Part shown: positions 21,840 to 34,065 of the stretch, piece by piece
How positions within the stretch are numbered: the stretch's first letter is position 1
How the letters are laid out: each line of letters opens with the position of its first letter
From: a virus
Strand: one strand, 5' to 3'
IMG/VR virus record: IMGVR_UViG_3300050019_000038
Coordinates: 1 to 45,376 of that record
DNA length: 45,376 nt
The notes under the pieces: generated by a model
The model's database searches: none
What the model was told of the DNA's origin: nothing
The model's input: only the letters and a program-made list of their open reading frames with translations
Made by a program: the position numbers and the translations under genes

Positions 21840-22322
21840 TTAAGCCACCTGATAAGTCACCTCCCGTTGAAAAGATGTTTTCCTGTAGACACTTCGTACC
21901 CACGCCGCATCCCACGCCGCAGCCCTCGCCGCAGCCCTCGCCGCATCCCACGCCGCATCCCACGCCGCAACCCCCGCCGCAGCGTCAATCTTCCCATCTG
22001 CGAAGTCTCTCGCGGCCTGTATCGCAAGTCGAGGTCGGTTATCAGTAGGGCGCTCTTTCTCAAACAGATACAAAACCGCTTCGGCACAATCAGCGGCGAT
22101 GTAGCGTGATATGCGGTCGCGTTCAGGATGATCGACAGCACGGAGACACCAGAGCATGTCGTCAACGCCGTTACTGCCGAGAATGGTCAAGAGGTTGATC
22201 GGCTTGTCCGTACCGTACTTGGTAACACCGCCCAAATGTGCGACAAGTTTCTTGTAGTTGGACTCGCAAGCACAAGCTTTGTGGAGTTGTGCAAAGGTTA
22301 CGGTGAAAATCTGTTTTTCCAT
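21840..22322 (-). CDS. Imm-5-like protein with Ala-Trp repeats
   Basis: A 160-residue protein. The region DMLWCLRAVDHPERDRISRYIAADCAEAVLYLFE..RP.DNRPRLAIQAARDFADGKID matches the Imm-5 'putative immunity protein' family, which also ends in Ala-Trp-rich helices. Here the repeat is VAAWDAAWDAARAAARAAAWDAAW (about 118-141, shown in pieces: AAWDAAWDAARA, AARAAAWDAAW). Imm-5 proteins were proposed as antitoxins of polymorphic toxins; the phage role is unknown. It begins directly after the previous stop and its DNA contains near-identical 12-15-base units. Confidence 0.65.
   Translation of the reverse strand: MEKQIFTVTFAQLHKACACESNYKKLVAHLGGVTKYGTDKPINLLTILGSNGVDDMLWCLRAVDHPERDRISRYIAADCAEAVLYLFEKERPTDNRPRLAIQAARDFADGKIDAAAGVAAWDAAWDAARAAARAAAWDAAWVRSVYRKTSFQREVTYQVA
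21893..21985. repeat. Short tandem repeats coding Ala-Trp/Ala-Arg units
   Basis: Units of CACGCCGCATCC and CTCGCCGCAGCC alternate six to eight times (plus strand). They encode the AAWDAAW/AARAAAW helix of the Imm-5-like protein. Length is likely to vary by slippage. Confidence 0.75.
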
Positions 22323-23862: not shown

Positions 23863-24720
23863 TCACCACAAGAACATTTGGCAGTCTACCCCTTCCCCTT
23901 CATATGCCTTGCCGCTTACCCACCAGTCCCATAAAGCTTCAACAGTGGGAAATTTCTCAATTGCTCGCGGATCGCCGTTGCGTTTCGGAACTCCCTTGTA
24001 TTTGTCGAAATACTTCTGAAATCCTTTTTTCCACATGACTTCATATTTCGGCCACCGCTTGAAATCCCGCGCTTGCCCTGTCGGCCCTCCCATTGGGCAG
24101 CCAACACAGCCGAGGCGGTCAAATCCTTCGTCATACAGGCAACAATACGGGATATTGCGCTCTCGGATGAATTGCCAAACGTCTTTACTTGTCCAATAAA
24201 GGATAGGGCAGAGAATGGGCTTGTTCGTCCGCCTGTCGATAGTCAGCGTTTTCCACAATCCTTTTCGCCTAGCAGACTCCTCGGCCCTTACGCCAATTGA
24301 CCTCAATTGGCCGATTCCTCCTTGCTCCTTGTAAATCTCACAACACCACCGGATTAAGCGAGTGGGGGGGCCGCATGATTTGGCATCAGCCATGTGCGCG
24401 ATAAGATGCTTTCCGGTAGAGTGCCAGATTGTATCTGGATGATGTTTCTTGCCGAACTGTACCAATTCAGGCGGGTCGATAGTGACGTTGTTATAGTGGC
24501 ACTTGTGTTTCACCCCTGCCATGATAAACAATTCCCGCATGATAGATGAATCTTTCCCAAACGAATCACAGACGTAAAACCCATCATCAGAAAGCTGTAA
24601 TGCTTGAGGTTCAAGGGACTTTATCAGGGAAATCGAGTCCATAACCTTCTCCGACAAGGGCCGGGAAATGGCAAACTGATACATTCCCTCTTCGTCCATA
24701 TTACCAAATAAATCTTTCAA
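23863..24720 (-). CDS. PAPS-reductase-family (PP-loop) protein
   Basis: A 285-residue protein of the phosphoadenosine phosphosulfate reductase/PP-loop family. It has the nucleotide loop SFGKDSS (about 53-59), CGPPTRLIRWCCEIYK (Cys116, Cys126-127), GVRAEES (143-149), a WTSKDVWQFI motif and a later CVGCPMGG (Cys205, Cys208) that could bind a metal or Fe-S centre. Many phages carry such proteins; proposed roles include sulfur transfer to nucleic acid (DndC-like) or sulfur metabolism, and the real substrate is usually unknown. It starts with TTG, six bases after GGAGG. Only a short C-terminal domain follows the PP-loop fold. Confidence 0.8.
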   Translation of the reverse strand: MKDLFGNMDEEGMYQFAISRPLSEKVMDSISLIKSLEPQALQLSDDGFYVCDSFGKDSSIMRELFIMAGVKHKCHYNNVTIDPPELVQFGKKHHPDTIWHSTGKHLIAHMADAKSCGPPTRLIRWCCEIYKEQGGIGQLRSIGVRAEESARRKGLWKTLTIDRRTNKPILCPILYWTSKDVWQFIRERNIPYCCLYDEGFDRLGCVGCPMGGPTGQARDFKRWPKYEVMWKKGFQKYFDKYKGVPKRNGDPRAIEKFPTVEALWDWWVSGKAYEGEGVDCQMFLW

Positions 24721-25404: not shown

Positions 25405-25983
25405 GTGAACACGTACACAGTCGAAGAAATCAAAGAAATTCTGGCGCTCCATAAGAAGTTTTGGAACGGTAAAGCGGGAGGGAAGCGCGCAAACCTTCAT
25501 GGCGCAAACCTTCGGGACGCAGACCTTCGGGGCGCAGACCTTCGGGACGCAGACCTTCGGGGCGCAGACCTTCGGGGCGCATACCTTCATGGCGCAAACC
25601 TTCGGGGCGCAGACCTTCGGGGCGCATACCTTCGGGGCGCAGACCTTCAGGACGCAGACCTTCGGGACGCATACCTTCAGGGCGCAGACCTTCGGGGCGC
25701 ATACCTTCAGGGCGCAGACCTTCAGGGCGCAAAGTACGGCACCGATGACGATACCGAATTAATGGTAAATTATTTCTGCGTCGGCCCCATCGGTAGCCGC
25801 TCCGATTACCTCCAAGTTTTCCACACTAACAAACGGATTGAACTGAAAACCGGATGCTTTGCTGGCTCCGTTGATGCTTTTGAAACTCAGGTTTTAGCGA
25901 CCCACGGAGAGAATAAACACGGCAAAGATTATGTTGCGGCAATTGCTTTTGTCCGGCAAATGACCGCCGAGGTTTCCCTGTGA
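25405..25983 (+). CDS. Pentapeptide-repeat protein
   Basis: A 192-residue protein with GTG start 5 bases after AGGAGG. Residues 29-108 are 16 pentapeptide units of the A(D/N/Y)L(R/Q/H)(G/D) type (ANLHG, ADLRG, AYLQG), which form a right-handed square helix like MfpA/Qnr DNA mimics. The remaining 80 residues form a separate domain (DYLQVFHTNKRIELKTGCFAGSVDAF...) typical of phage pentapeptide proteins. Possible roles are protection or inhibition of a DNA enzyme; this is inference. The coding repeat is unusually homogeneous at the DNA level. Confidence 0.85.
   Translation: MNTYTVEEIKEILALHKKFWNGKAGGKRANLHGANLRDADLRGADLRDADLRGADLRGAYLHGANLRGADLRGAYLRGADLQDADLRDAYLQGADLRGAYLQGADLQGAKYGTDDDTELMVNYFCVGPIGSRSDYLQVFHTNKRIELKTGCFAGSVDAFETQVLATHGENKHGKDYVAAIAFVRQMTAEVSL
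25489..25728. repeat. 15-bp tandem repeat coding pentapeptides
   Basis: Sixteen near-identical 15-base units of the form GGCGCAGACCTTCGG, differing mainly at A/T/G positions that swap Asp, Asn, Tyr and Arg/Gln. Identity is too high for an old repeat family, suggesting recent expansion or gene conversion. Confidence 0.9.
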
Positions 25984-32648: not shown

Positions 32649-32678
32649 TTGACAATCTCAGTGGAGGTATGGGATAAT
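32649..32678 (+). promoter_or_regulatory. Strong promoter for the leader RNA and radical-SAM gene
   Basis: TTGACA (32649-32654), 18 bases, GATAAT (32673-32678), preceded by TATGG. Expected start about 32684-32686, exactly where the leader stem begins. Best promoter match in the window. Confidence 0.7.
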
Positions 32679-32684
32679 TTCAGC

Positions 32685-32790
32685 GTCTAGGTCGCAGTAG
32701 AATATCAATCGAATAATGGCTGTACCGGCTTTAGCCGTTCCGAGCCCCCTGAGTTCTATTGCGCCTAGACAACGTAATTTCCAGGGGGCT
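32685..32790 (+). ncRNA. Structured leader RNA with SD-sequestering pseudoknot
   Basis: Outer stem: 32685-32691 GUCUAGG pairs with 32764-32770 CCUAGAC; after one bulged U (32692), 32693-32696 CGCA pairs with 32760-32763 UGCG; then 32697-32702 GUAGAA with 32754-32759 UUCUAU. That is 17 bp with one bulge. Inside, 32715-32721 pairs with 32733-32739 (7 bp, 11-base loop). The loop sequence AGCCCCCUG (32743-32751) is exactly complementary to CAGGGGGCU (32782-32790), which contains the Shine-Dalgarno AGGGGG of the TTG start at 32796. So the RNA forms a pseudoknot that hides the ribosome site, like translational riboswitches. I do not match it to a known class by eye. Confidence 0.65.
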
Positions 32791-32795
32791 TACTT

Positions 32796-33653
32796 TTGTC
32801 CAAAATTGGCCTAATAGACGTAGACAGCAAAATCCCCAATCTCGCCTTGATGAAGATAAGCGCCTACCACAAGGCGCAAGGCGATTCCGTTGAATTGACC
32901 TCCCCGTTGTTTGTCGACCAGTTCGATAAAATTTACGCCTCTAAAATATTCAAAGACTCCCACCTTCCGATGCTACCGGCAACCGCAATCATCGGCGGCA
33001 GTGGTTTTGACCTGTCCATAAAGCTCCCCCCTGAAATTGAATCACAATTCCCCGATTACAGCCTTTACCGTTGTGATTATGCAGTAGGGTTTACCCTTCG
33101 CGGCTGTTCTCGCAGATGCCCCTTCTGCATTGTTCATGAAAAGGAAGGTTTGCCGCAAGTCGTAGGGGATATTTACAATTTCTGGAATGGGCAAAAACGC
33201 CTGATGCTTCTCTGTAACAACCTCACCGCCGACCCCAAACACTTTGAAAAGATATGCCGTCAGCTTATCGAAAACCGTGTCGAGACAGACTTTAGTCAAG
33301 GGTTAGACATACGCCTTATAACTCATTATATGGCTGTGCTACTGGCGAAGGTGAAGCTCTGGAAACAGATACACTTCGCTTTCGATAATATTAATCTCTG
33401 GAAACAAGTCAGGGACGGAATCAAGACTTTAGACAGCGGCGGGGTGAAGCGGTACAAGCTGATGTTCTTTGTCCTCATTGGCTACAACAGCACTCCGCAT
33501 GAAGACATGGTGAGAACCCGGCTGCTGAGGAAATGGAAGGTTGACCCGTTCGTTATGCCTTATGATAAGACCGACCAATACCAAAAAGATTTTGCCCGGT
33601 GGGTAAACCACAAGGCAATTTTTAAAAGTGTCGCGTGGAAGCATTATAGATAA
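32796..33653 (+). CDS. Radical SAM protein (phage B12-binding-like N-terminus)
   Basis: A 285-residue protein starting with TTG, 7 bases after AGGGGG. Radical-SAM cluster motif CSRRCPFC: Cys104, Cys108, Cys111 (CxxxCxxC) after a glycine-containing strand (GFTLRGC). The first 100 residues (IGLIDVDSKIPNLALMKISAYHKAQGDSVELT) look like the Rossmann cobalamin-binding fold found before such radical SAM domains. The C-terminal part (MFFVLIGYNSTPHED) fits a partial TIM barrel. This phage family has no known substrate. It is separately promoted, isolated after the early operon, and preceded by a structured leader. Confidence 0.8.
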   Translation: MSKIGLIDVDSKIPNLALMKISAYHKAQGDSVELTSPLFVDQFDKIYASKIFKDSHLPMLPATAIIGGSGFDLSIKLPPEIESQFPDYSLYRCDYAVGFTLRGCSRRCPFCIVHEKEGLPQVVGDIYNFWNGQKRLMLLCNNLTADPKHFEKICRQLIENRVETDFSQGLDIRLITHYMAVLLAKVKLWKQIHFAFDNINLWKQVRDGIKTLDSGGVKRYKLMFFVLIGYNSTPHEDMVRTRLLRKWKVDPFVMPYDKTDQYQKDFARWVNHKAIFKSVAWKHYR

Positions 33654-33979
33654 CCGGTGCATCTGCTCCCTCCGGTACACAATGGGGAGAACGTACTTTC
33701 CGCAACCGACATAGAACAGCCAAGCCAACAATCCCCTTACTCACAAACCGGGGGGCGTTTAGTTCTGTCAGGGATATATGGCAGGATGACCGCATAAACA
33801 GGCAACGTAGTATCAGGCAAAGACGCTCCTCGCCAGAGTCAAAACAGGCACCTGATAAAGTTGTTGGCGAAGTTTGGGGCAACGTGAGTTCCTACCTTCA
33901 TTCTCCCCTATCCCACCGCCTAGATAGCAGTTAGACTACATCGGGTTTGTGTAACTGTCTCTAAAATAGAAGTGAGCAT
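33654..33979. other. Intergenic region without convincing gene; paired sequences
   Basis: About 326 bases between converging genes. Right after the radical-SAM stop, ACCGG (33653-33657) can pair with CCGGT (33672-33676), while CTCCC (33666-33670) in its loop pairs with GGGAG (33685-33689), a small H-type pseudoknot. Further on, CAGTTA (33928-33933) and TAACTG (33952-33957) flank 18 bases. The only frame of length is a minus one at 33622-33882 without good start context. Could be a 3' RNA domain, or a decayed gene. Confidence 0.4.
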
Positions 33980-34006
33980 AAAAAAAGCCGCCCATTTCTG
34001 AGCGGC
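33980..34006 (-). terminator. Terminator at the end of the late block
   Basis: Minus strand: GCCGC (34006-34002), loop, GCGGC (33991-33987), then seven T (33986-33980). Clear intrinsic terminator pointing left, about 60 bases past the last late gene. Confidence 0.8.
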
Positions 34007-34065
34007 GATACCCTGCAAGGAGGTTACAAGGCAACTGTTACGGAGCTGTCAACACCGGATAAGGT

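Follow-up and report, generated by a model that had tools for sequence, protein, structure and literature searches.

The radical-SAM gene that starts at position 32796 of an uncultured phage is preceded by a leader whose bases can pair with the whole Shine-Dalgarno sequence of the gene. We propose, with a probability of about one half, that this leader is a private, phage-specific brake that acts in cis on the translation of a horizontally acquired gene. The window, i.e. the whole stretch of DNA analysed, is the 45,376-bp IMG/VR virus record IMGVR_UViG_3300050019_000038, whose terminase shares ~51-52% identity with those of epsilon15-like phages. From 32649 to 32798, a promoter-like sequence, a stem (P1) with its loop elements, a connector, the 3' strand of a second helix (S2) and a TTG codon follow each other in the 5' to 3' direction. 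The features of the region are the following:

32649..32678, plus strand: predicted sigma-70 promoter, TTGACA-18 nt-GATAAT with an extended -10 TG (11/12 consensus matches)
32685..32702, plus strand: P1 5' strand, GTCTAGG(T)CGCAGTAGAA, with a bulged T at 32692
32715..32739, plus strand: inner hairpin, AATGGCT-11 nt-AGCCGTT, predicted to form if the two S2 strands are kept apart
32716..32814, plus strand: overlapping upstream ORF of 32 codons, lacking a Shine-Dalgarno, likely due to chance
32743..32751, plus strand: S2 5' strand, AGCCCCCTG (anti-Shine-Dalgarno), inside the P1 loop
32754..32770, plus strand: P1 3' strand, TTCTATTGCGCCTAGAC, pairing with 32685-32702
32771..32781, plus strand: connector L3 of 11 nt, which would span the 17-bp P1 in A-form geometry
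32782..32790, plus strand: S2 3' strand, CAGGGGGCT, within which the Shine-Dalgarno AGGGGG occupies 32783-32788
32796..33653, plus strand: radical-SAM gene (phrog_9298), 285 aa, TTG start, with CX3CX2C at C104/C108/C111

Layout of the leader and its start codon

The candidate promoter ranks first among 20 in the early region (24.7-34.3 kb), and the transcription start predicted from it, at ~32685, coincides with the base of P1. An earlier note made from the letters of the sequence had described a 17-bp stem with one bulge at this start, an inner 7-bp hairpin and a 9-base loop segment complementary to the Shine-Dalgarno region of the TTG start, and all three elements are present. P1 (32685-32702/32754-32770) consists of 17 pairs, one of them G-T, with a single bulged T and a duplex energy of -25.1 kcal/mol. 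The arms of the inner hairpin (32715-32721/32733-32739) form 7 pairs, one being T-G, and S2 (AGCCCCCTG/CAGGGGGCT) is made of 9 perfect pairs with an energy of -18.3 kcal/mol, or -21.9 with the flanking pair. The Shine-Dalgarno AGGGGG falls wholly within the predicted S2 pairing and lies 7 nt 5' of TTG 32796.

This TTG is the sole plausible start of the gene, the upstream frame being closed by a TAA at 32775-32777 and the conserved N-terminus KIGLIDVD starting two codons further on. Among the closest homologues, several (L013, L015, L002, L019 and L021) likewise appear by eye to start at a TTG, consistent with low expression. A reading of S2 as an intrinsic terminator was rejected, the tail TTACTTTTG being a poor T-run and no terminator being called there. 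On the 3' side of the gene, ~400 nt (33654-34065) are devoid of convincing genes, and a clear terminator at 33987-34006 serves the opposite strand only.

Rarity of the pairing against chance

A geometry scan that required a stem and, in its loop, a segment fully complementary to some stretch of the 25 nt following the stem singled out the leader as an outlier site, with 18 pairs (one inner pair can be added to P1) and 9 pairs in S2. A single further match, with 11 + 8 pairs, turned up on either strand. Among 60 shuffled windows in which dinucleotide frequencies were kept, none (0/60) had a stem of at least 17 pairs together with an S2 of at least 9. The anti-Shine-Dalgarno energy of the leader ranks third among 1,187 phage genes: in the loci compared and the window, 2 of 1,186 open frames bearing a recognisable Shine-Dalgarno have a stronger complement to it within the ~100 nt on their 5' side. 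In the window itself it is the strongest, at -21.9 versus -13.3 for the next gene (a gap of 8.6 kcal/mol), and its z score against shuffled leaders is -4.2. The combination of stem, inner hairpin and anti-Shine-Dalgarno is thus far above chance.

Taken by itself, the nested folding energy of the leader stands out only moderately (z -3.5 over 136 nt), and in a sliding scan the leader has a fold z of ~-2.7, with more than 30 other stretches of the window lower. The case therefore depends on the joint geometry and on its register with the promoter and the Shine-Dalgarno. The strongest local fold signal of the window (z -5.6) lies at 21916-22035 on the minus strand, within an ORF. Another stretch, at 33301-33420 on the plus strand (z -5.2), is inside the radical-SAM coding sequence and overlaps short direct repeats.

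The radical-SAM family and the search for relatives of the leader

The gene is a clear member of phrog_9298, as indicated by a profile match to this 'radical SAM domain protein' family (E 1.1e-76) and by the CX3CX2C motif, whose cysteines C104, C108 and C111 are invariant across 11 sequences. An AlphaFold model of the protein (mean pLDDT 84) has MiaB (E 2e-8; RNA complexes included) and AprD4 as its top matches among solved structures, and the sequence matches to MiaB/RimO are weak. The family is common: IMG/VR holds at least 577 of its loci, and another 148 lie in genomes of bacteria and archaea. Literature searches found nothing on its regulation. A PAPS-reductase-type protein (Pfam PF01507, E 1e-19) is encoded at 23863-24720 on the minus strand of the window, and a protein of this type is annotated near the radical-SAM gene of Bacteroides phage LoVEphage. 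Near the start of the early cluster, at 25405-25983, a protein carries pentapeptide-like repeats (ADLRGA pattern).

The leader is not a general feature of the family. No homologous leader was detected upstream of the homologues, nor by blastn in the phage and plasmid collections. The nearest homologues of the protein are at most 63% identical among the matches listed, and the leader is absent from them; other phrog_9298 members generally lack it as well. The preceding open frame, called mechanically, lies within 20 nt or overlaps in 88 of the 127 homologues with a measured distance. Shine-Dalgarno sequestration across the family was rejected, the z scores of Shine-Dalgarno complementarity in 113 non-redundant homologues having a mean of 0.03 (sd 1.08), compared with -4.2 in the window. 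One homologue at 56% identity has a different leader at L018:1910-1997, with an anti-Shine-Dalgarno z of -3.0 and an unremarkable nested fold z of about -0.6 (-0.63), possibly a second, independent leader that hides its Shine-Dalgarno. Its loosely similar arrangement, in which CCCCTTTC can pair with the Shine-Dalgarno segment GAAAGGGG and is enclosed by CACATG/CATGTG, was discarded as evidence in view of this fold and of the lack of sequence similarity to the leader of the window. In another phage contig, a single Rfam match to a CRISPR direct repeat (CRISPR-DR2, E 4e-6) is present at L014:1648-1677, ~300 nt before the radical-SAM gene of that contig.

In agreement with the earlier statement that no known riboswitch class is recognisable, the covariance models of Rfam 15 gave no match to the leader at gathering or relaxed thresholds, the best sub-threshold match being on the opposite strand (E 1.1). 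At the gathering threshold, a search of 19 homologous loci revealed no known class for the leader of the window either. A single-sequence covariance model, which is insensitive to distant relatives, found the window itself as the only meaningful score in 171 sources, and its best match in the whole records of 21 relatives is a 41-nt partial one (E 0.31). Pattern scans of IMG/VR brought up two sets of candidates, both rejected. The exact S2 pair occurs in 58 stretches, close to chance by estimate, and none of the best-scoring ones combines the P1 stem with the start region of the window. The lower part of P1 has 8 matches, which are variants of one coding-like sequence, with a glycine-rich, tail-fibre-like reading, and are unrelated to the leader. 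The nearest sister phage (G001) has a terminase at 83% identity and structural genes in common with the window, and it harbors neither the radical-SAM gene nor the other early genes tested, suggesting that the gene and its leader lie in a mosaic region.

The absence of the leader from the homologues and from the covariance-model searches counts against the brake and leaves selection on the structure hypothetical. The leader may have come with the gene and fold by happenstance, with no regulation at all, as its lack of conservation, the mosaic early region with a gene absent from the sister phage, and the moderate nested z would allow. However, a 17-bp stem, a 9-bp anti-Shine-Dalgarno and their register with the start site go well beyond what shuffled sequences give, and we regard this explanation as unlikely.

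Predicted folding and possible control of translation

In a nested model, the fold with P1 only (-47.3) and the fold with the S2 hairpin only (-47.2) are isoenergetic, so we infer the pseudoknot itself rather than compute it. With S2 kept unpaired, P1 and the inner hairpin together give -38.0; adding S2 stacking (~-22) and the conventional pseudoknot penalty of ~+9 to +10 places the joint fold of P1 and S2 near -50, as a rough estimate. The complementary segments are interleaved as in an H-type pseudoknot and the loops are long enough to cross: from A-form coordinates, the connector needs to cover ~43 angstrom and its 11 nt reach up to ~72. The P1/S2 pseudoknot is therefore sterically feasible, and its formation is predicted. 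In a transcript that lacks the P1 5' strand, S2 folds as a hairpin in which the Shine-Dalgarno is fully paired, so that S2 would hide the Shine-Dalgarno with or without P1. Read-through RNA from upstream retains P1.

According to the proposed brake, the transcript made from the promoter of the gene itself would begin at the base of P1, which would fold once its 3' strand is transcribed. The C-rich 3' side of the P1 loop would then pair with the Shine-Dalgarno segment, forming S2 and an H-type pseudoknot, and this pairing would keep initiation at the weak TTG codon low. Messenger RNA read through from upstream would also keep P1, and where P1 is missing S2 would form as a plain hairpin, so that in both cases the ribosome site would stay hidden in the absence of a competitor. 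Such a brake would most likely serve to limit the amount of the Fe-S enzyme or to time its production, and any release would probably come from a protein (of the phage, of the host, or the enzyme itself) or from ribosome competition, rather than from a metabolite. We favour this brake because the Shine-Dalgarno is completely buried in a 9-bp GC-rich helix, because the anti-Shine-Dalgarno is exceptional by rank, z score and comparison with the 60 shuffles, because P1 starts where transcription is expected to start and the loop geometry is feasible, and because the pairing would withstand both read-through and the loss of P1.

Such a mechanism is of a known kind, with no sign of sharing by other phages. 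In the SAM-II and preQ1-II/III riboswitches, loop bases pair with a downstream segment containing the ribosome-binding site in an H-type pseudoknot, and the loop bases of the leader are predicted to pair with the Shine-Dalgarno segment in the same manner. The leader differs from them by its lack of an Rfam match, of a conserved aptamer and of relatives, and by its long, 17-bp P1. In the leaders of T4 gene 32 and of ribosomal protein S15, a pseudoknot that adjoins or covers the start region controls the translation of one gene, a position similar to that predicted here; those leaders respond to proteins, whereas for this one, predicted from its sequence, a protein partner would be hypothetical. 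The T4 late genes e, soc and 49 have ribosome-site hairpins in their early transcripts, and their late promoters exclude the 5' arm. A hidden Shine-Dalgarno in a phage mRNA is common to both cases, but the start predicted at ~32685 keeps the whole of P1 in the window, which departs from timed sequestration of the T4 type. If the structure works as predicted, the phage has placed an acquired Fe-S enzyme gene under its own strong translational lock, and whatever signal releases it would be a clue to the role of the widespread, uncharacterised phrog_9298 enzymes.

The earlier note had taken the geometry for that of a translational riboswitch or a protein-responsive leader; a structured leader that can sequester the Shine-Dalgarno at a strong promoter is indeed present, but it bears no sign of an aptamer or of a riboswitch class. 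If the leader were a ligand-responsive riboswitch of a new class, its aptamer would be made up of P1, the inner hairpin and the loop, and the ligand would stabilise or open S2. This would fit the resemblance to pseudoknot riboswitches that sequester the Shine-Dalgarno, the predicted alternative pairing of the latter, the equal energies of the P1-only and S2-only folds, as in bistable switches, and the lack of a match to known Rfam classes. The aptamers of riboswitches, however, usually show conservation over many genomes, and none was found in the IMG/VR pattern scans, by blastn against phages and plasmids, with the covariance model or upstream of the homologues, which makes a riboswitch improbable. 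A very rare class of pseudoknot riboswitch that senses a metabolite or the enzyme product and controls a MiaB-like radical-SAM enzyme is very improbable, and SAM, cobalamin or the product of the enzyme as ligand would be a guess.

Autogenous control, in which the radical-SAM protein would bind its own leader and stop translation, is an attractive speculation in view of the likeness of its fold to that of MiaB, an RNA-modifying enzyme solved in complex with RNA, and of the weak MiaB/RimO matches. Yet a protein of 285 aa could hardly accommodate an RNA-binding TRAM domain in addition to its core, and the homologues lack the leader, so we give this possibility little credence.

The P1-only fold of the nested ensemble leaves part of the Shine-Dalgarno unpaired, and P1 could thus instead be an ON state competing with the S2 hairpin, with processing (e.g. 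cleavage of the 17-bp stem by RNase III) or a shorter transcript giving the OFF state. The equal nested energies and the full pairing of the Shine-Dalgarno without the P1 5' strand would suit such a switch. The geometry nevertheless permits both helices together, and in the rough pseudoknot estimate the joint fold comes out a few kcal/mol ahead, leaving this competition doubtful at best.

Finally, it is extremely improbable that ribosomes translating the ORF at 32716-32814 open P1 and S2 before re-initiating at the TTG: this ORF does extend across the 3' strand of P1, across S2 and over the TTG and ends 18 nt inside the gene, but it has no Shine-Dalgarno, its ATG sits within the inner hairpin, and an open frame of 32 codons is expected by chance in about one case out of five.
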